Origin: Acidobacteriota bacterium | Lineage (GTDB): Bacteria > Acidobacteriota > Terriglobia > Terriglobales > Acidobacteriaceae | Direction: 5' to 3' | Assembly: GCA_003225005.1 (NCBI GenBank) | Contig: QIAN01000070.1 | Location: 1-64,000, forward strand | Length of the DNA: 64,000 bases | In this document: one piece after another, positions 2,295-31,373 of the stretch | How the letters are laid out: each line of letters begins with the position of its first letter | How positions within the stretch are numbered: the stretch's first letter is position 1 | Program-made: the position numbers and the translations under genes | The notes under the pieces: model-generated | Databases searched by the model: none | What the model saw: only the letters and a program-made list of their open reading frames with translations | Told to the model about the DNA's origin: nothing

Positions 2295-3044
2295 ATGTCT
2301 GGCCATTCAAAATGGGCCACAATCAAGCATAAAAAGGGCGCGCTAGACGCCAAGCGTGGGAAGATTTTCACCCGCCTGATCAAAGAAATCAGCATCGCCG
2401 CGAAAAATGGCGGCGGCGATCCTGACTCCAACCCGCGTCTGCGTGGCGCCATCGTTGCGGCCAAGGCGGAGAATATGCCCGCCGATAACATCAAGCGGGC
2501 CATCCAGCGCGGCACGGGCGAGCTTCCCGGCGCCACTTACGAGGAGTTCTCTCTGGAGGGCTACGGCCCGGGCGGGGTCGCGGTTCTGCTTGACATCAAT
2601 ACGGACAACCGCAACCGTACCGTGAGCGAGATCCGTCATGTCTTCGGCAAAAACGGGGGCAACATGGCGGACGCAGGTGCCGTCTCCTGGATGTTCCACA
2701 AGAAGGGTGACATTGTCATTCCTAAATCCGCGGCCAAGGAAGATGATCTGATGAACATCGTGCTTGAGGCCGGCGGCGAGGATCTGAATGATGATGGGGA
2801 GAACTGGGAAATCATCACCGCGCCGTCTGCCTATGAAGCCGTGCTGGAAGCGGTGAAGAAAGCCGGGATCGAACCAGCTTCTTCTAGCGTTGCCATGATT
2901 CCTCAAAACTACGTCAAGGTGGAAGGCGCTGCCGCGAACACCATGATCCGTCTGATGGAAGCGCTCGAGGAACACGACGACGTGCAAAACGTGCACTCTA
3001 ATTTCGATATCGACCAGAAGCTTCTGGAAGAGGTTGCTGGCTGA
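2295..3044 (+). CDS. yebC: YebC/PmpR family regulator or translation factor
   Basis: 249 aa, the usual length of the YebC/PmpR family. The start [14 protein letters not shown] and the following [12 protein letters not shown]-like segment are the family signature; the acidic C-terminal domain ends in [10 protein letters not shown]. Members were described as DNA-binding regulators, and some act in translation of proline-rich or otherwise stalled peptides. GAGG lies upstream of the ATG. A strong terminator follows directly, so it is probably a single-gene transcript from the extended -10 promoter at 2192. Confidence 0.95.
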
Positions 3045-3069
3045 TTTGTTATTGCGGAATGGGACGAAA

Positions 3070-3094
3070 AAAAGCCGCCTGTCGGGCGGCTTTT
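3070..3094 (+). terminator. Rho-independent terminator after yebC
   Basis: AAAAGCCGCC and GGCGGCTTTT form a perfect 10-bp stem with a TGTCG loop, 25 bases after the yebC stop. The A/T ends of the stem make it potentially bidirectional. Confidence 0.88.
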
Positions 3095-3284
3095 GCATGA
3101 TCGATGGATGGCTCGGGCCTTCTGGGACTGACAAAAAAAGGTTTTTAACACGCACGGCGGTAAATTCTGTGGAAAACCGGGAAAGTATCCTCGTAAGTGA
3201 TTTATTCGCAGACGCTTTAGCACTTTGCACTGGAGCGGGTGCTGGCACTTTAGTGGCCCGTCGGCCTGGAGCGGAACGCGGGTG

Positions 3285-4058
3285 ATGGTTGGCAAAGGGA
3301 ACGACTTTTTGAAACTCAGACTCGACAAACTTCTCGTCGAGCGCGGATTGGTGTTGTCGCGCGAACGCGCGCAGGCGCTGATCCTCGCCGGCAAGGTGTT
3401 GGTCAACGACCAGAAGATTGCGAAGGTTGGCACGGCGGTTGACGCCGGTTCAGAGATCCGCTTGCTCGGCGAAAGCCCCAAGTATGTCAGTCGAGGTGGA
3501 CTGAAACTTGAACGCGCCCTTGAGCACTGGCATCTTGAAGTTGCTGGCAAAGTTTGCCTGGACGTCGGTGCATCGACTGGGGGCTTCACCGATTGTCTGC
3601 TTCAACACGGCGCAGCGCATGTGATCGCGGTGGACACGGGGTACGGTCAAATGGATTTTCATTTGCGTCAGGATCCCCGGGTTCGTCTGCTAGAGAAAAC
3701 GAATGCGCGCTATCTTCGCCGCGAAGACCTCGGCGAATTTGTGGATCTCATCGTGATGGACGTCTCGTTCATTTCCGCCACCCTGATTCTGCCTGCCCTG
3801 CTCGATGCTGCCCTTCCTGAGACATTCGAGGGACGACATGGCCGACCATTCGTTGTCCTGGTAAAGCCACAATTCGAAGTGGGTCGCGCGTTAGTGGGGA
3901 AAGGAGGTATTGTGCGCGATGAAGCTGCCCAGCTGGCTGCGGTCGAAAAGGTTCGGCAAACACTGTTGAATCTGGGCTGCCAGACGACCCAGTCCATCGA
4001 ATCCCCAATTCTTGGAGCGGAAGGCAATCGGGAATTTTTGTTGTGCGGAGTTTTCTAA
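3285..4058 (+). CDS. tlyA: TlyA family rRNA 2'-O-methyltransferase (hemolysin A type)
   Basis: 257 aa from the ATG at 3285; the frame is open further upstream but that stretch does not look like the family. An N-terminal S4 RNA-binding domain (about residues 8-70) is followed by a Rossmann FtsJ-type methyltransferase with the SAM loop DVGASTGGFTDCLL. The K-D-K-E catalytic tetrad can be read in GGLKLE, IVMDVSF, LVKPQFE and GNREFL. TlyA enzymes methylate ribose 2'-OH groups in 16S and 23S rRNA; the hemolysin name is historic. nadK follows after 133 bases on the same strand, a pairing that is common in bacteria. Confidence 0.92.
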   Translation: MVGKGNDFLKLRLDKLLVERGLVLSRERAQALILAGKVLVNDQKIAKVGTAVDAGSEIRLLGESPKYVSRGGLKLERALEHWHLEVAGKVCLDVGASTGGFTDCLLQHGAAHVIAVDTGYGQMDFHLRQDPRVRLLEKTNARYLRREDLGEFVDLIVMDVSFISATLILPALLDAALPETFEGRHGRPFVVLVKPQFEVGRALVGKGGIVRDEAAQLAAVEKVRQTLLNLGCQTTQSIESPILGAEGNREFLLCGVF

Positions 4059-4191
4059 GGTTCACACACTGGTTGTCCCATCAACCCAGAAGCGGTGCCG
4101 CAAACTGAGTTTCACTGCTTTGCCCCGTAATCCTGGGATCTGGTTTGGTGAAGGCTTTTGCTCCAGATTCTGTACAATTCATGTTTCGCCC

Positions 4192-5079
4192 ATGCCAACG
4201 CAATCGGATCGTCCAAAATCTGCGGCCATTGTTTCCAAGCCCGGCCGCCCTGAGGTCGCGCGCATATTGCCCGGCGTGATGGAGTGGTTCCGCGCTCACA
4301 ATTACCAAATGGTCGTGGACCCGCAAACTGCCGAGTATGCCAAGGGCCAGGAAGTGGTTCCGCGCTCCCAAATGTCGTCGCGGCCATTGGATCTGGTCGT
4401 GGTGCTCGGGGGCGACGGAACATTTTTGTCGGCGGCGCGGTCTATGGCCGCAACCGACGTTCCCCTACTCGGTGTCAATCTCGGCTCCCTTGGATTCCTC
4501 ACCGAGGTGCCCCTGCCCGCTCTATATCCCACCCTGGAGGCGATCTTCCACGGACAAGGGACTATCGAGTCGCGTTCTCTCATTCAGTGCACTTTGTTCC
4601 GCGGGCCAGAAAATCTGGGAAGCTATCAGGTTCTGAACGACGTCGTGCTGAACAAGACCGCGATGGCTCGCCTTAACAACTACGATCTTTCAGTCGATAA
4701 GGTATTTGTTTCCAGCTATCGGGCCGATGGCATGATCGTTGCCACACCCACCGGTTCTACTGCCTACTCGCTTTCGGCTGGAGGTCCGGTACTGATGCCC
4801 ACGGTCGACGCGTTCGTGATTACGCCAGTGTCTCCTCACTCGCTGACCCATCGCCCCCTGGTAGTGCCCGATTCCGCGGAGATCGAAATTGTGCTCAAAG
4901 GCAACGCGGAGGAGGAGGCCTATCTCAGTCTGGATGGCCAGCCTGGCGTAGCTTTGCGGGATGGCGACCGCGTCCGTTGCGGCCGGTCGGCACACAAGGT
5001 CAACCTGTTCCGGACCGGTACGGATTTCTTTGAAGTGCTGCGCACCAAGCTAAAGTGGGGAGAAAATAATCCGATTTGA
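4192..5079 (+). CDS. nadK: NAD kinase
   Basis: Phosphorylates NAD to NADP in the cytoplasm using ATP or polyphosphate. From the ATG at 4192 the protein is 295 aa, a normal size. The GGDGT motif is in VVVLGGDGTFLSAARSM and the second conserved block is TPTGSTAYSLSAGGP. The reading frame stays open back to 4012, but that extension overlaps tlyA and does not resemble the family, so I start at the ATG matching the usual N-terminus. No strong ribosome binding site is visible for it. Confidence 0.93.
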   Translation: MPTQSDRPKSAAIVSKPGRPEVARILPGVMEWFRAHNYQMVVDPQTAEYAKGQEVVPRSQMSSRPLDLVVVLGGDGTFLSAARSMAATDVPLLGVNLGSLGFLTEVPLPALYPTLEAIFHGQGTIESRSLIQCTLFRGPENLGSYQVLNDVVLNKTAMARLNNYDLSVDKVFVSSYRADGMIVATPTGSTAYSLSAGGPVLMPTVDAFVITPVSPHSLTHRPLVVPDSAEIEIVLKGNAEEEAYLSLDGQPGVALRDGDRVRCGRSAHKVNLFRTGTDFFEVLRTKLKWGENNPI

Positions 5080-5160
5080 ATCGAGTCCTTCCGCCGGAAC
5101 GCAATTGCACCTCCCGCGGAACGGTGATCCACCTAACGGTGGCCGACAAAGGAAAAGATC

Positions 5161-6843
5161 TTGCGAATCGAACGGCTTTTTGCCGTATTCATCATCGCCA
5201 TCGCAGCGGTTGCGCAATCTAAGCCTGCTGCTGATCTCATCATTACCCATGCCAAGGTCTGGAGCGTGGATCAAGCCCATCCCTCTGCGCAGGCTGTGGC
5301 GGTGCTCGGCGATCGCATCGTGGCGGTCGGTTCCGCTGCCGACGTCGATGCTTGGCGCGGTCCTCATACCCACGTTCTGAATGCCGGCGGCAAGTTGCTG
5401 CTACCCGGCTTCAATGACGCTCACGTTCATTTTGTTATGGGTGGGGAGCAGCTGGAGAGCGTCCAGCTCAATGATGCTACGTCGCCGGAAGAATTCGCGG
5501 GTCGTATTGCTGAGCGTGCGGGCAAAACCTCGAAAGAAGAATGGATCCGCGGCGGCAACTGGGATGAAACCAAGTGGAATCCCGCCACGCTGCCGACCAA
5601 AGAACTGATCGACAAGCTCACTCCAAACACTGCCGTGTTCGTCGTGCGCTACGACGGGCACATGGGCTTGGCCAATTCCGTGGCCCTGCGGCTGGCCGGA
5701 ATCACCGCCCAAACACCCGACCCGCCGGGAGGCGTCATTGTTCGAGATGCCCAAGGCAATCCCACAGGCATACTGAAAGATGCAGCGACGGAGTATGTCA
5801 ACCGAGTGATTCCGCCGATGTCGCATGAGCAGCGCCTGCGGACGATCCGCCATGCGCTTGCTCACGCAGCCTCACTCGGTGTCACCAGCATCGCAGACAT
5901 GAATGACGAATATAGCGATAGTTACGCCGACATCGAGGCCTATTCGGAATTGCTTGAACAAGGTGAGCTGACAGCACGAGTCTATGTTGCCCCTTCGATC
6001 AGCGACTGGCCGGATCAGGCGAAGATCGGCTTGCGGCATGCGTTCGGCTCTTCTTATCTAAGGGTTGGAGCATTGAAGGGATTCGCCGATGGATCGCTGG
6101 GCTCGCGCACCGCGTATTTTTTTGAGCCTTTCGACGATGATCCCTCGAATCGCGGCTTATTGCGGGCCCAGATGCAGCCGCTTTCGGCCATGCGCGAGCG
6201 CATGATGAGGGCCGACGCCTCCGGCCTGCAGGTCTCGATGCACGCGATTGGCGACCAGGCAATTTCCATGGTGCTGGATTTGTACTCTGAAGTCGAAAAA
6301 TCCCACGGTGCCGGCGACCGTCGCTTCCGCATCGAGCATGCTCAGCACATGGCGGCCAAGGATTTCGATCGCTTCCGACAACTCCACGTGATCGCCTCAG
6401 TCCAGCCGACCCATGCCATTGACGACGGGCGCTGGGCCGAGACCCGCATTGGCCATGATCGCGCCAGTCGCACCTATGCCTTCCGAACTTTTCTAAACCA
6501 CGGTGTGCGTCTCGCCTTTGGCACCGATTGGGAGGTGGCTCCACTCGATCCCATGTTAACCATCTACGCTGCTGTCACTCGCGCTACGTTGGACGGTAAG
6601 CGACCGGGCGGCTGGTTTCCAGAGCAAAAGTTGACCGTACCGGAGGCGGTCGAGGCCTACACCATGGGTTCTGCCTACGCGGAATTTCAAGACAAAGAGA
6701 AAGGATCCATCACGCCCGGCAAGCTCGCCGACATGGTCCTCGTCAGCGACGATCTTTTCACGATCGCACCCGCGAAGATTCGTGAGGTAAAGGTCCTTAA
6801 GACGATCGTGGGAGGAAAAATCGTTTTCGGTCAAAGCCCATGA
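5161..6843 (+). CDS. Exported amidohydrolase, YtcJ-like
   Basis: 560 aa beginning with TTG, with AAAGGA at a good distance. Residues 1-20 form a short signal peptide (LFAVFIIAIAAVAQS), so the enzyme probably acts in the periplasm. The amidohydrolase-3 fold is shown by FNDAHVHF (metal HxH), YDGHMGLANS, DGSLGSRTA, HAIGDQA, RIEHAQH and FGTDWEVAPLDP, followed by the C-terminal beta-sandwich segment GKLADMVLV. YtcJ-type proteins hydrolyse amide or formamide-like bonds; the substrate cannot be told from sequence. It lies 81 bases after nadK and may be co-transcribed. Confidence 0.88.
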   Translation: MRIERLFAVFIIAIAAVAQSKPAADLIITHAKVWSVDQAHPSAQAVAVLGDRIVAVGSAADVDAWRGPHTHVLNAGGKLLLPGFNDAHVHFVMGGEQLESVQLNDATSPEEFAGRIAERAGKTSKEEWIRGGNWDETKWNPATLPTKELIDKLTPNTAVFVVRYDGHMGLANSVALRLAGITAQTPDPPGGVIVRDAQGNPTGILKDAATEYVNRVIPPMSHEQRLRTIRHALAHAASLGVTSIADMNDEYSDSYADIEAYSELLEQGELTARVYVAPSISDWPDQAKIGLRHAFGSSYLRVGALKGFADGSLGSRTAYFFEPFDDDPSNRGLLRAQMQPLSAMRERMMRADASGLQVSMHAIGDQAISMVLDLYSEVEKSHGAGDRRFRIEHAQHMAAKDFDRFRQLHVIASVQPTHAIDDGRWAETRIGHDRASRTYAFRTFLNHGVRLAFGTDWEVAPLDPMLTIYAAVTRATLDGKRPGGWFPEQKLTVPEAVEAYTMGSAYAEFQDKEKGSITPGKLADMVLVSDDLFTIAPAKIREVKVLKTIVGGKIVFGQSP

Positions 6844-24708: not shown

Positions 24709-27700
24709 CTATCTCGCGGAAGCCTCGAGGGCCGCGGGGCCCTTCCAAGTTGAGTTGCGTAGGGGTCTGCCGGCTTTTGCCCCCGTCACTCGACCATCAA
24801 CAAATTCCAACTGTCCGTTGACGAAAACGTACTTCACGCCTTGCGAAAGCTGCGTTGGCTCGGCGTAAGTAGCGGCGTCGCGAATTTGTTCGGGATCGAA
24901 GACCGTGATGTCCGCGAAGTAGCCTTGCTTGAGCAAGCCGCGATCGCCGAGACGTTCACGCTGTGCAGGCAAAGAAGTCATCTTACGAACTGCCTGCTCT
25001 AGCGGCAGTAGATCTAAATCGCGGATGTAATGGCCCAGAAAGCGCGGCATAGCTCCAAAGGCGCGCGGATGGCTGTGCGCCTCGAAAAGTGGTCCGTCGA
25101 GCGAGAGCTCGTTTGCGTCTAGGCAGACGCTGGTCCAGGGCTGCTTCAGGCCATACTGCAGATCCTTTTCGTTCGCGATGAAGTAGAGCGCGCCGGTTTG
25201 GCCTTTATCGGCAAGAATGAAATCAAAGAGAGCATCGAGCGGCATTTTTTTTTGTTCGGCCGCGATCTGCGCGATGGTCTGTCCATCATATTTTTTCAGG
25301 TCAGGATTCACCACCCCTGAGACCATCACTCCGGTCCCCCCGCCACTATCGAAATACAGGTTCTCCCATGTAGGCTGATCGGAAGTCATTCCCAGTTTGA
25401 TCTTCTTCCGGATAGATGGATCTTTCAGGCGTTCGAGCAACTTATCCAAACCTCCGTCCGCCACCCACGGCGGAAGGCTTGCCGCTAGCGCGGTACCGCC
25501 CGCGACGTAGGGATACATATCCGCAGTCACATCCTGTCCGGAGCTCCGCGCTGATTGAATCATCCCGACAATTTTCGGCATCGAACCCCACCTGGTCTTA
25601 CCGCTGACCTTCAAGTGGAAGATTTCTACGGGGAGTCCCGCTTCGCGCCCGATACGTAATGCTTCTGCAATCGCCTGTGGTTCGGTTTGGCCTTCGCTGC
25701 GCATGTGGGTGCCGTAAATGCCGCCATATTGCGCAGCGACTTTGGCCAGCTCAATCAATTCTTCGGTCGTGGCGTAGTGTCCAGGCGGATAGATAAGTGC
25801 AGTGGAGAGCCCGAATGCTCCTTGTTGCATTGCTTGGGCAACGAGACCCTTCATTTTTTCTAATTCTTCTGGCGTAGGGGCACGATCCACATCGCCGAGC
25901 ACCGCTTCCCGCACTTGGGCTGCGCCGACATACGTCCCAATGTTCAACGGCGTGCCAGTTCGTTCGAGGCGCTTGAAGTAACCGTCGAGGTCAGACCAGT
26001 CAACTTTCAGGTGATAATGATCGAGCTCAGGTTGACGTGGGGCGAGGGTAAGAGGTGTTTGCGGTGCGATCGACTGGCCCTCTCCCGTGATCTCGGTGGT
26101 GATGCCCTGTGAAAGCTTGCTCAACGAGCGATTGTCAATGAGCAGAGCCTCCTCAGATTGGCCCAACATATCAATGAACCCCGGAGAAACCAAAAGGCCG
26201 GACGCATCAATGACGCGTTGGGCGGTGGCTCCGTTGAGTTTGCCGATCGCTGCAATGCGGTCGCCGCGGATGGCGAGGTCGCCGGAGGCCCAAGGATTGC
26301 CAGAGCCATCAATGATTTTGCCATTCTTGATGATTACGTCGTAGGTGGTACTCGCCTGCACTGGCGGTTGGGTGAGCAGCGGCGCGTCGTACGCAGCAGA
26401 GGCGATTTCGCCCAAGGCTTCGCCCACAACCTTCTGCGCCGCTTCAGGATCATCCGTAGTCACCGACACCATGTTGGCATACAGCGCAAATGCGAAATGC
26501 TGCCCATTCGAGGTTTCCATGTATCCGGCTAAGCCCTTCCCGGTAACCAGGAGATTTTTATTTAGCGCATCGTCAACGTCATAAGTTCCAGTTTTTGCAT
26601 GAATGTGACCGGCAGCGGGCGAGGCCACTTGGATTTTCGCAAGTGTGCCGTCGCGGCCCAGAATAGGGAGAGACCGGTCGAAATCCGCGAAGTCTTTCTG
26701 CTTTGCCATGAAGGCGAGATAACGCGCCATAAAATCGGGGGTAAAGTAGGCATTGCCTCCGGCGCCATCACTTTGCGCCGCCGCCGATAAATCCAAACCA
26801 GCTCTTTGTAGGAAATCGTGTTCCAGGTCGAAACCAGCTTGGTTTATCTTCTTATCTTTATGCGCCAAAACCGCTCCCAGGATGAACGGAGTCATACTGG
26901 CGTGCAGATTCTGGCTTACTTTGAGCGTGACTTTCACTTCTTCTTTCAGCGGGGATGAGATGTGCTCGGCAACTAGATTTTCCGGTGTGTAATTGGCGGC
27001 AAGCGACTTGAAGTCAAATTTCTCAGTAGGAGCAGGGAGCCTGGCATTAACCCCCGCTTGTTTAAGCGCCTCCACTAGAACGGTCTCGGCAAAGCGGCTA
27101 GGCTCGGGAACGGAGTAGGCGTTCATGCCGAATGGCTTACCTAAGGGAAGATTGCCAGCCAAGGTCACGCTGCGAGTGCCATCCGGATTTGTTTTTTCGT
27201 TGATGTAATTGAGATCAGCTTTGGAATCTGCCTTGCCGGTTTTAGCCTGATTAATGAATTGCACATAAGAGGTTTTCGGGGAAATCTGAAGAGTTATGGG
27301 CGATCCTTCATTGGCTCCCGGTTGCGCAATAACGTCAATCACATTGTCATTTACAACCATGGGCGAGATCACCACGCCGGTGCCAAGCTCGCGATCCCCT
27401 TCGGGGAAAAGCGTTGCATCAACCAGCACGCGCCCCTTGATGCGTTTAATCCCTTTGTCTGCGACCTGCCGGGCCAATTCATGGATGACGAGCAATGAAT
27501 CGCCCGGTACCCCTTTGCTATCAGGGCCGCCATACGAGTGGTCCTCATTTTCAAACGCCAACGTTCCACCGGGCTGAATGCGGGCGGAGAGATTAGGGTC
27601 ACCGCTCGCCACCAGAATGAGATCGCCCTCAAGCGTGCCGTCCTCGCGGACCCGTCCGGTGCGATAGATCCTGCTATGAAAACGGTAGTCGCTACCGAGG

Positions 27701-27975
27701 AGTTCTAGGGCCGTGCCCTCGGTGAGAAGCTTTGTGGTAGAGCCAGGAACAAAAAGTCTTTGTGCGTTCAGTTGGAAAACCGGCTTGTCAGAGTCCAGCG
27801 AATAGAACTCGATCCCGAACTGCGAGTGCGTAAATTCCGGACGGTTCATGATTTGTTGAATGCGTCTGTCAAACGTCTCAGGGGCCTGAGCAAAAAGCAC
27901 ACTGGCGCAAAGACAAAGTGAACCGCCTATAGACATAATCCATTTAAGTACCGCCAACGCGCCGCTTTTTGTCAT
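24709..27975 (-). CDS. Fusion: D-Ala-D-Ala carboxypeptidase (PBP4/S13) + N-acyl-D-amino-acid deacylase-like amidohydrolase
   Basis: 1088 aa with a signal peptide (cut near FAQA, residue 30). Residues 31 to about 530 are a complete PBP4/DacB-type peptidase: S79-T-T-K82, S354-Q-N356 and K461-T-G463. From residue 544 (TYDVIIKNGKIIDGSGNPW) runs a full amidohydrolase like D-aminoacylases, with THMRSEG (H757), FHLKVSG (H787) and the C-terminal GYFADITVFD. The usual HxH after PGFID is replaced by LGQ, and the D-aminoacylase metal Cys region reads GEGQS, so the metal site is remodelled. Both halves look intact in one frame. The combination suggests release of terminal D-amino acids and hydrolysis of an N-acyl-D-amino acid or similar amide. 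The start overlaps the 60-aa ORF upstream as ATGA. Confidence 0.9.
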   Translation of the reverse strand: MTKSGALAVLKWIMSIGGSLCLCASVLFAQAPETFDRRIQQIMNRPEFTHSQFGIEFYSLDSDKPVFQLNAQRLFVPGSTTKLLTEGTALELLGSDYRFHSRIYRTGRVREDGTLEGDLILVASGDPNLSARIQPGGTLAFENEDHSYGGPDSKGVPGDSLLVIHELARQVADKGIKRIKGRVLVDATLFPEGDRELGTGVVISPMVVNDNVIDVIAQPGANEGSPITLQISPKTSYVQFINQAKTGKADSKADLNYINEKTNPDGTRSVTLAGNLPLGKPFGMNAYSVPEPSRFAETVLVEALKQAGVNARLPAPTEKFDFKSLAANYTPENLVAEHISSPLKEEVKVTLKVSQNLHASMTPFILGAVLAHKDKKINQAGFDLEHDFLQRAGLDLSAAAQSDGAGGNAYFTPDFMARYLAFMAKQKDFADFDRSLPILGRDGTLAKIQVASPAAGHIHAKTGTYDVDDALNKNLLVTGKGLAGYMETSNGQHFAFALYANMVSVTTDDPEAAQKVVGEALGEIASAAYDAPLLTQPPVQASTTYDVIIKNGKIIDGSGNPWASGDLAIRGDRIAAIGKLNGATAQRVIDASGLLVSPGFIDMLGQSEEALLIDNRSLSKLSQGITTEITGEGQSIAPQTPLTLAPRQPELDHYHLKVDWSDLDGYFKRLERTGTPLNIGTYVGAAQVREAVLGDVDRAPTPEELEKMKGLVAQAMQQGAFGLSTALIYPPGHYATTEELIELAKVAAQYGGIYGTHMRSEGQTEPQAIAEALRIGREAGLPVEIFHLKVSGKTRWGSMPKIVGMIQSARSSGQDVTADMYPYVAGGTALAASLPPWVADGGLDKLLERLKDPSIRKKIKLGMTSDQPTWENLYFDSGGGTGVMVSGVVNPDLKKYDGQTIAQIAAEQKKMPLDALFDFILADKGQTGALYFIANEKDLQYGLKQPWTSVCLDANELSLDGPLFEAHSHPRAFGAMPRFLGHYIRDLDLLPLEQAVRKMTSLPAQRERLGDRGLLKQGYFADITVFDPEQIRDAATYAEPTQLSQGVKYVFVNGQLEFVDGRVTGAKAGRPLRNSTWKGPAALEASAR

Positions 27976-28198: not shown

Positions 28199-29329
28199 TC
28201 AAGCTGGTACCGATACGGCGTCCACCTTCCACGATTCTTGACGGACGGTCAGCTTATTCACTGCACTGCGCCGCACCGTATACCCGAGCCCCGGCGACTT
28301 AGGGGCCGCGATTGTGCCGTTCGGGCTCACGGTTACCTCGGGATCAATGATGTCCTCATCCCAATAGCGGTGACTGGCCGAGACGTCTCCTGGCAACGTG
28401 AATCCAGGCAACGTGGACATCGCAATGTTGTGCACCCGTCCGATACCGCTTTCCAGCATTCCGCCGCACCACGCCGGCACTGATTGTTGGCGGCAAACAT
28501 CTTGTACGCGGCGAGCCTCACTGTGTCCTCCAACGCGCCCCAGTTTGATGTTAATAATCCGGCAGGCACCCAGCTCGATCGCAGTGGCCGCATGACGGGC
28601 GTTATGAATGCACTCGTCGAGGCAAATTGCAGTTTTGATCTGCGATTGTAGTTTAGCGTGAGAATGAATGTCATCCCAGTACAACGGTTGCTCAATCATG
28701 AGCAGATTAAATTCATCGAGCTCCTTCAAGTGGGGCGCATCTTCAAGACGATACGCAGAGTTGGCATCCACGGAGAGTCGTATATCCGGAAATTGTTTGC
28801 GGACAGCAGCGACAGAAGCCAGGTCCTTGCCAGGTTTGATCTTCAACTTGATTCGTTGATATCCACTCTTCAGCTCCTCTTCGACTTTCTTTACTAAGGA
28901 CTGCGGATTTTCGCGTATTCCAAGGGAAACGCCGCAGGCGATCTGTTCCAGTGTGCCGCCCAGCAATTTCCACAGGGGCACACCTCGTTGCTGCGCCTCA
29001 ATGTCCCAAAGCGCGTTCTCCACGCCGGCCTTGGCCATGTGATGACCACGAATCCCCTCTGTTCGCTCAGGAAAATCAGAGGCTGCCGCGAGATTGTTTC
29101 CGATGAGCGAAGGCGCGATGAAATCGGAGATGATGTGCCAGGCTGTCTGTGTGGTCTCAGGGTTGTAAGAAGGCGTCTCGTCCGTAGTGATCTCGCCCCA
29201 GCCAGTCACTCCATCAGCGCTGACTTCCACCAGAACAATCCTGCGATCTTGGGTCACGCCAAAGCTGGTCTCAAATGGTGACCTGAGGCGCATTTTGATT
29301 TCGCGCAAATTAATGAACTCAATCTTCAT
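28199..29329 (-). CDS. Enolase-superfamily N-succinyl/N-acylamino acid racemase or o-succinylbenzoate synthase
   Basis: 376 aa with every residue of the MLE-subgroup NSAR/OSBS site: K163-I-K165, D188 in SVDANSAY, E213 in MIEQPL, D238 in CLDEC and K262 in INIKLGRVGG, plus the C-terminal GGMLESGIGRVHN. Such enzymes make o-succinylbenzoate for menaquinone, racemise N-succinyl or N-acyl amino acids, or do both. No menaquinone genes are near, while a D-amino-acid deacylase-like domain is two genes downstream, so racemisation of N-acylamino acids is the better guess. GGAG precedes the ATG. It overlaps the upstream gene by 11 bases. Confidence 0.85.
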   Translation of the reverse strand: MKIEFINLREIKMRLRSPFETSFGVTQDRRIVLVEVSADGVTGWGEITTDETPSYNPETTQTAWHIISDFIAPSLIGNNLAAASDFPERTEGIRGHHMAKAGVENALWDIEAQQRGVPLWKLLGGTLEQIACGVSLGIRENPQSLVKKVEEELKSGYQRIKLKIKPGKDLASVAAVRKQFPDIRLSVDANSAYRLEDAPHLKELDEFNLLMIEQPLYWDDIHSHAKLQSQIKTAICLDECIHNARHAATAIELGACRIINIKLGRVGGHSEARRVQDVCRQQSVPAWCGGMLESGIGRVHNIAMSTLPGFTLPGDVSASHRYWDEDIIDPEVTVSPNGTIAAPKSPGLGYTVRRSAVNKLTVRQESWKVDAVSVPA

Positions 29330-29831
29330 AACGCTCCAACAAATAAGTTCCGTACTCGTGATCTATTTTGAAACCAGTGATCGCATAGGAACTTTCGCAG
29401 AGTTGCTGAAGTTCCGAACGAAGGCCGCGCTGAATGTTTTCCGCCTGTCCAGGCTCTGATTTGCAGATTTGGCCTAGGTGGAGGGGAACAGAAATCTGTT
29501 TATGTCTTGTTGCAGTTTGGGAGGCGCGCCCGTGCAAAATCGCTCTCACCCAGTCCGTAGCTTCGCAATCTTTGGCGGGTGGAATGATCTCAACCTGAAT
29601 TCCTATTTCTTCAAAGCAGCGTTTGATTGCGGTCCATTGCTTCTTTGCCTTGACACCATCCCCCTTGCCCAGATGGTTCCTCATGTAAGGATTTTTTACG
29701 TCAACGACATCGAAGGCGGGAGAGCACATCAACACGGACTTTGGATATGGCGTGCCGCGCAATGCTCCCAGAACATCGCCAGGAGGTAATTGGTCAGCGC
29801 GCGATAGCACGGTAGAATTTAGACTAGTCAT
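29319..29831 (-). CDS. Truncated DDAH/amidinotransferase-like protein
   Basis: 170 aa. Residues 30 to about 85 (VLMCSPAFDVVDV, NPYM, QWTAIKRCFEEIG, VEIIPPAKDCE) resemble the N-terminal strand-helix unit of dimethylargininase / arginine deiminase-fold enzymes. In those a PDMVFTAN-like motif and later catalytic His and Cys should follow; here the sequence diverges after PPAKDCE and ends early, so the active site is missing. The last 85 residues match nothing I know. The start overlaps the permease stop (ATGA) and the end overlaps the racemase start, so translation is likely. It may be a decaying gene kept for coupling, or a recruited small domain. Confidence 0.55.
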   Translation of the reverse strand: MTSLNSTVLSRADQLPPGDVLGALRGTPYPKSVLMCSPAFDVVDVKNPYMRNHLGKGDGVKAKKQWTAIKRCFEEIGIQVEIIPPAKDCEATDWVRAILHGRASQTATRHKQISVPLHLGQICKSEPGQAENIQRGLRSELQQLCESSYAITGFKIDHEYGTYLLERYED

Positions 29832-31222
29832 GCTTGGCTTCCAACCGGAGTGCTCGCGGCATGCAGCTTGCGCCAGATCGCGTACGCAGGAGCACCCGCC
29901 AGCACAATTCCCAGCCCTACCACCGCACGCTTCGGCTGGGTGGCAATGGTGTTGGTCACAAGAGCGATGGCCGAAGCGATAAACACCAGCGGCGTGACCG
30001 GATAGCCGGGAACTCGGTATGGACGATTGGCATATGGCAAGCGTTTGCGATATACAAACACACTGGCTGCCGCTAGTGCATAAAAGATCCAGCCAATAAA
30101 CACGACATAGGTTAGGAGTTGTTCAAATGTCCCGCTGGCAGCGAGGGTCGCGGCCCACATGGCGGCCGCAATCACGGCGAATGCTGGTGTTCCAAACCGC
30201 GGATGCACTTCGGAAAGACGTTGAAAAAAGACACCGTCTTTCGCCATCGCGTAGTAAACCCGGGGTGCAGTCAGCATGATGGAGTTGGCTGCGCTGAACA
30301 TGGAGATAAGAATGGTGAGCGCCACTAATTTCGCAACCCTCGGCCCGATCACAAATGAAACCGCAGTCGCTGCTACGCGGTTGGAATTTGCCACCCCATC
30401 GGCGCCTAGGGCAGCGAGATAAGCGACATTGGCAAACAAATAGATGCCGATCAGCGCTACCGATCCGGCCAGGAAGGCGAGCGGGAAATTACGTTGCGGA
30501 TTCAAGGTTTCGCCGGCGGTAAAGGTTGCGTATTGCCAACCCTCGTAGGCCCAAAGCACGCTGATCATGGCCAGGCCAAATCCTGAAGCTAGCGCGCCTG
30601 GGCTTAAATGTTGCGATGTTGCGATCACGGCGCCAAAGCTTTTTCCCATCCACAGTAGAGCTGCTCCCATCAGCACAATGGCAGCTACCTTCAAAGTCGT
30701 AGTCACGTTCTGGAGGTCCGAACTTTGGCGCGTGCCGCGCACATTCACCACACAGATCACGGCAATCATCAGAACCGAAACCAGCTTGGCCAGCAGCGGG
30801 GTAAGTGGAATGAACTCGGCAAGATAATTGCTGAAGGCAACAGCCAGCGTGGCGACAGAGCCAGCGCTGATCACAAAAAACAGAGTCCAGCCAAAAAGAA
30901 ACGCGAGGAACGGGCCGAAACAATCGCGAATGTAAACGTAGAGACCGCCAGCCTGTGGTTTCATCGCGCTCAGCTCGCCATAGGTGAGCGCGCCCAACAG
31001 TGACAGGACACCGCCCGCAATCCAAACGCACAATCCGAGCGCGATCGAATTGCCAAGTGGACGAAGCACCGCGCCCGGAACAAGAAAAATACCTGAACCA
31101 ATCACCGTCCCAATGATGAGTAAGAATAGATCTCGAAATCTTAAGACTCGAGACAGCTGCCGCTGGCGGGATTTGTCTTCCTGTTGCACGTGCAAATTGT
31201 CAACCGCATTAGGAACGAGCAT
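29828..31222 (-). CDS. APC-superfamily amino acid permease
   Basis: 464 aa from the ATG at 31222, preceded by GAGGG; a TTG 18 bases upstream has no room for a ribosome binding site. About 12 transmembrane helices can be counted. TM1 has the APC signature FLLIIGTVIGSGIFLVPGAV and TM6 lies around GLAMISVLWAYEGWQY. It looks like an amino acid/polyamine exchanger or proton symporter of the inner membrane (LAT-like, YfnA-like). Together with the racemase and deacylase downstream it would bring freed amino acids or derivatives into the cytoplasm. Confidence 0.9.
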   Translation of the reverse strand: MLVPNAVDNLHVQQEDKSRQRQLSRVLRFRDLFLLIIGTVIGSGIFLVPGAVLRPLGNSIALGLCVWIAGGVLSLLGALTYGELSAMKPQAGGLYVYIRDCFGPFLAFLFGWTLFFVISAGSVATLAVAFSNYLAEFIPLTPLLAKLVSVLMIAVICVVNVRGTRQSSDLQNVTTTLKVAAIVLMGAALLWMGKSFGAVIATSQHLSPGALASGFGLAMISVLWAYEGWQYATFTAGETLNPQRNFPLAFLAGSVALIGIYLFANVAYLAALGADGVANSNRVAATAVSFVIGPRVAKLVALTILISMFSAANSIMLTAPRVYYAMAKDGVFFQRLSEVHPRFGTPAFAVIAAAMWAATLAASGTFEQLLTYVVFIGWIFYALAAASVFVYRKRLPYANRPYRVPGYPVTPLVFIASAIALVTNTIATQPKRAVVGLGIVLAGAPAYAIWRKLHAASTPVGSQA

Positions 31223-31373
31223 TGGACCCTCGTTCAACAACCTTCAATGTGCTTCCGCAAAGATACGAGCATGATGCGCTCGATCAATGCATCATAGGCC
31301 TGCCGAATCCTGCGCTCTGCTGTTTCGCTTGACGATGAGAATGATGTCGGCTCTCCTGTTCAAGCAATCCGGA

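Follow-up and report, generated by a model that had tools for sequence, protein, structure and literature searches.

A recurrent single-chain fusion of a PBP4-type D,D-peptidase and a D-aminoacylase-fold amidohydrolase with an altered metal site in Terriglobia

A single reading frame in a 64,000-nucleotide stretch of an Acidobacteriota genome (contig QIAN01000070.1, hereafter the window) encodes a PBP4-type D,D-peptidase followed by an amidohydrolase of the D-aminoacylase fold. Each half is familiar; the joined form is real and recurrent, and we found no description of it. The original prediction, which knew of no such joined form, had placed both enzymes in one protein and in one uninterrupted frame of 1088 codons, and this is supported by the sequence, the recurrence of the fusion and its gene context. 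The coordinates and the length it gave were right, and the coding frame lies on the minus strand, the plus-strand reading of 24709–27975 being full of stops. A literature search returned no paper naming both enzymes and none describing the joined form. The gene is made up of the following parts.

24709..27975, minus strand: gene of the PBP4–amidohydrolase fusion, 1088 codons and a stop (translation, Pfam/NCBIfam profiles, homologous one-frame fusions)
27883..27975, minus strand: putative signal peptide, residues 1–31 (…LCASVLFAQA, followed by PET), identified by eye
26377..27882, minus strand: PBP4/S13 domain, residues 32–533 (Pfam, TIGR00666, Foldseek)
26347..26376, minus strand: inter-domain linker, residues 534–543
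24712..26346, minus strand: D-aminoacylase-fold amidohydrolase domain, residues 544–1088 (profile, model, structure match)

Judging by its signal-like N-terminus, the protein is probably exported, and the aligned fusions keep AxAQ near the place of the window's putative cleavage site. The GC content is 53% in the first half of the gene and 56% in the second. A separate start for the amidohydrolase half is possible and nothing suggests one, the only ATG, GTG or TTG codons within residues 534–600 being GTG 539 and TTG 595. The full-length AlphaFold model is weak (mean pLDDT 67.7) and does not fix the domain arrangement; at the junction, for which the original prediction had proposed structure prediction, its pLDDT falls below 50 at residues 538–543.

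The joined form recurs in public genomes. In a class-level search, one-frame fusions were found among the matches listed in 33 of 399 sampled Terriglobia genomes, or about one in twelve, a manual count from a table of best matches that weak or fragmentary fusions may escape. The carriers fall in three family groups (mostly f7); in four of them (G187, G159, G295 and G254) the fusion runs off the end of its contig, and one carrier (G272) has two copies. The fusion of G264 lies on a single contig of 5.65 Mb, and that of G050 has a linker roughly 75 aa longer. Four public MAGs (L046–L049) also carry the fusion, at least three of them being, judging by length, the same contigs as loci of the sampled genomes. 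The 31 aligned fusions are 58–74% identical to that of the window and share every catalytic residue. Among the matches listed, the phylum-level search of 396 genomes gave no fusion beyond the window's own, and there was none in the phylum to which a Gemmatimonadaceae bacterium belongs (150 genomes), where the two halves occur separately. No other fusion was seen in 24 genomes of the window's genus, several of them fragmentary, and no plasmid record covered 80% of the fusion. Stand-alone relatives of the amidohydrolase are common across the phylum; at two loci from genomes near the window's genus (L003 and L050), it stands alone, with a signal-like N-terminus, directly after an enolase gene. 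Three open frames of 932–1028 aa (L117–L119) were not counted as further amidohydrolase fusions because the N-termini of L117 and L118 look non-coding, and that of L119 reads by eye as an overlapping M16-like gene.

The first half shares the profiles, motifs and fold of the class C low-molecular-mass D,D-peptidases (PBP4/DacB, MEROPS S13). Peptidase_S13 (PF02113) matches residues 38–512 at 4.7e-60, with 204 bits against a cut-off of 22.8, and TIGR00666 scores 160 bits (cut-off 107.8). With the full-length model as the query, the Foldseek matches of this half are 1w79 (Actinomadura R39), 1w5d (B. subtilis PBP4a) and 2ex2 (E. coli PBP4). Sequence identity to these solved members is low (~20–23%), and, unlike them, the window protein adds a C-terminal amidohydrolase. 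The complete motif triad of a serine D,D-peptidase, as originally predicted, is present and conserved.

27730..27741, minus strand: SxxK motif, S79-T-T-K82, invariant in 31 aligned fusions
26908..26916, minus strand: SxN motif, S354-Q-N356, with S and N unchanged across the 31 aligned fusions
26587..26595, minus strand: KTG motif, K461-T-G463, invariant in 31 aligned fusions

Release of a terminal D-Ala by this half would be the standard expectation from such a complete S13 active site.

For the second half, the predicted full amidohydrolase fold is confirmed; the loss of its HxH metal motif had not been noticed in the original prediction. Amidohydro_3 matches it at 4.9e-19, above the Pfam cut-off, whereas the PRK09061 profile (NF006560) scores 213 bits, below its curated cut-off of 340. 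Modelled alone, the domain has a mean pLDDT of 95.4 and superimposes onto D-aminoacylase 1m7j with a Z of 56.3 and an rmsd of 1.8 over 466 residues. It shares its fold (Z 55–56), a pair of His ligands and the putative catalytic Asp with the subtype V beta-mononuclear amidohydrolases (1m7j, 3gip, 9g5m and PpOngB, 9kb1), whereas LGQ in place of HxH, Glu in place of Cys and the fusion to PBP4 set it apart. The residues concerned were assigned from alignments.

26152..26169, minus strand: M603-LGQSE-608 at the D-aminoacylase HxH place (His67, His69; after beta-1), ligand pair lost
26080..26082, minus strand: E632, putative beta-metal ligand replacing Cys96
25705..25707, minus strand: H757, equivalent of D-aminoacylase His220
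25615..25617, minus strand: H787, equivalent of D-aminoacylase His250
25117..25119, minus strand: D953, putative catalytic Asp (Asp366 equivalent)

FIDxLGQS is found in 78 of 82 relatives, and at the place of Cys96 the alignments to D-aminoacylase show Glu or a gap instead. The H757, H787 and D953 columns are invariant over 99 sequences and the Glu column is conserved in at least 90%. The Asp366 pairing depends on the alignment, as phmmer in pairwise mode gives D960 instead, a position without conservation across the subfamily.

With LGQ at the place of HxH and Glu at that of the zinc-binding Cys, the second half, as judged from its residues, departs from the canonical D-aminoacylases. It is probably a modified hydrolase with a single metal, with E632, H757 and H787 at the metal and D953 as the base, because D-aminoacylase-type enzymes require one zinc, at the beta site, and E. 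coli NagA, the ligand set of which is Glu-His-His, offers a QXN precedent. Loss of HxH could, on the other hand, mean altered catalysis or none at all, and it is unlikely, in our estimation, that the domain has no catalytic, or no hydrolytic, activity and acts as a binding or scaffold module for the PBP4 peptidase. The losses of HxH and Cys96 speak for such a module, as does PpOngB, in which replacement of either HxH His with Ala abolishes activity (PMC12017989). The Glu, the two His and the Asp are nevertheless kept, the amidohydrolase half is better conserved among the fusions than the PBP4 half, its stand-alone relatives are widespread, and in the NagA enzymes of E. coli and V. cholerae, which use one metal, HXH is naturally replaced by QXN (PMC6016474). 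These belong to another family with another substrate, and the window domain differs from them in having LGQ and a Glu at the D-aminoacylase Cys place, but they are a precedent for an active amidohydrolase that lacks HxH. Hydrolysis of N-acyl-D-amino acids, originally proposed for this half, is possible, with a weaker case than had been stated because of the two replacements and the essential HxH of PpOngB.

The gene order in the window is permease, DDAH/GNAT remnant, enolase, fusion, S9 peptidase and S12 serine hydrolase, and another S12 hydrolase lies upstream of the permease.

29828..31240, minus strand: APC-type amino-acid permease (PF13520, 8.2e-55)
29319..29831, minus strand: 170-aa ORF, DDAH-like N-part and GNAT-like C-part (profiles, sequence comparison)
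28199..29329, minus strand: enolase-superfamily gene, OSBS/NSAR group, upstream of the fusion in the same direction (TIGR01928, 348 bits, cut-off 200.65)

The enolase is found in the same place in L003, L050, L082 and L084. Its sequence contains KIK and NIKLG (a candidate for the catalytic Lys pair), and TIGR01928 also covers OSBS. The genome has two TIGR01928 enolases over the cut-off, at 28334–29299 (minus strand) of the window and at G000:C376:2783-3748 (L181), and no MenD over the cut-off. Because a recognisable MenD is missing from the genome, the window-type enolase is probably an N-acylamino-acid racemase. The DDAH match of the 170-aa ORF is weak and its C-part corresponds to the C-terminal end of the GNAT that occupies this operon place in L084, L046 and L080, so that it is a probable chimeric remnant of the operon's GNAT. 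Clusters of GNAT and N-succinyl/N-acylamino-acid racemase genes occur in Geobacillus, and the adjacency of GNAT and TIGR01928 enolase is common to these clusters and to L080 and L084. Here, in contrast, a permease and the probably exported PBP4–amidohydrolase are added, the racemase is a predicted one and the GNAT of the window is broken. Rfam gave no match at gathering thresholds, and promoter and terminator scans found sites no more frequently than in shuffles.

Within 5 kb of 30 fusions we found genes for gamma-glutamyltranspeptidase (17), a RpiR/MurR-type regulator (16), an M15 D-Ala-D-Ala dipeptidase (12), enolase (7), permease (4) and GNAT (4), counts that are not independent because many of the loci with the first three belong to one family and one conserved locus beside ilv genes. 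The M15 dipeptidase is also found near 7 of 25 unfused PBP4 relatives, and the five M15 genes read at the N-terminus have a hydrophobic stretch each. At L087, a single chain of 824 aa (2726–5197, plus strand) directly upstream of the fusion combines an S12 beta-lactamase-family domain with an M15 D-Ala-D-Ala dipeptidase. On a Deinococcus psychrotolerans plasmid (L188, NZ_CP034185.1, 1–8533), genes for a peptide-type ABC transporter, for two serine hydrolases, for an amidohydrolase and for a MurR/RpiR regulator stand in a row, and the D-aminoacylase relative there reads FIDVMSHS at the HxH place.

Whether the tree is built from the PBP4 or from the amidohydrolase half, fused proteins are intermixed with single ones. 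With contig-edge rows removed, the amidohydrolase tree needs seven changes, of which at least four are forced by well-supported branches, and the AU test rejects a fusion that arose once and stayed unchanged thereafter (p 5e-43). The alternation may be due to repeated fusion or to repeated loss of the PBP4 part, and in the window's own clade either direction is compatible with the data (p 0.13). Fusion-only trees of the two halves are in broad agreement, except that the L086/87/89 group is placed differently. Independent re-fusion in L085 was considered and not retained: the placement of its amidohydrolase with the window's type is compatible with the data (p 0.19), although its PBP4 separates from L086/87/89 (p 0.002). 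Among the matches listed, close relatives of the two halves, both unfused, share a genome in 7 of 13 cases (p 1.6e-6 by Fisher's test, from a hand-read count, uncorrected and ignoring kinship). Because the two partners are repeatedly joined, or separate within one genome, they may share a substrate.

Our preferred explanation, for which our confidence is evenly balanced, is that the fusion is a genuine recurrent, probably exported two-domain enzyme for the salvage of peptidoglycan peptides or D-amino acids. The order of events that we infer is the following. The PBP4 domain would remove the C-terminal D-Ala of peptidoglycan peptides, or open their D,D-cross-links, via a serine acyl-enzyme, and the tethered amidohydrolase would cleave a further amide beside a D-residue, such as that of the tetrapeptide D-Ala or of an N-acyl-D-amino acid. 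The products would enter through the permease and then be handled by the GNAT and the enolase racemase. Salvage is consistent with the domain families, motifs and fold, with the recurrence, the gene context and the co-occurrence of unfused halves, and also with the two TIGR01928 enolases in a genome without MenD and the Deinococcus plasmid context. The loss of HxH, of which both His are essential in PpOngB, the GNAT remnant, the absence of an M15 neighbour from the window and the five fusion loci at which none of the tested partner genes lies within 5 kb (L085, L086, L089, L090 and L098) argue against it, as does the fact that the amidohydrolase and the enolase probably act in different compartments. 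The fusion also makes the salvage of wall peptides and D-amino acids by these soil bacteria amenable to testing.

The S13 match in the window is the only one in its genome, as would befit a housekeeping PBP4 for cell-wall maturation, to which an amidohydrolase with an unrelated substrate is linked for co-export or co-expression only. We find this improbable, as the same two partners are repeatedly joined or separated and co-occur when unfused, and as the neighbours are of a catabolic type. The solitary amidohydrolases of L003 and L050 are the one hint of an artefact of sequencing or assembly in which adjacent genes were joined, which is rejected as exceedingly improbable because the fusion recurs in a single frame in dozens of independent genomes, including the 5.65-Mb contig, and the window linker is like those of L081, L082, L084 and L046.

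More speculatively, and with considerable doubt on our part, the LGQSE amidohydrolases may be an unrecognised single-metal (Glu-His-His) class that trims D-residues of wall peptides, in which case the fusion would be a serial trimmer, with PBP4 removing D-Ala5 and the amidohydrolase D-Ala4. The D-Ala4 step would then be an L,D-carboxypeptidase reaction carried out by a D-aminoacylase fold. We know of no activity for any amidohydrolase of the LGQSE type, and the fusion provides a handle on this very common, uncharacterised subfamily in Acidobacteriota. A paralogue in the window's own genome (L018, 1456–3099, minus strand) keeps HxH and already has the Glu, and is thus a possible intermediate between the D-aminoacylase and LGQSE types.
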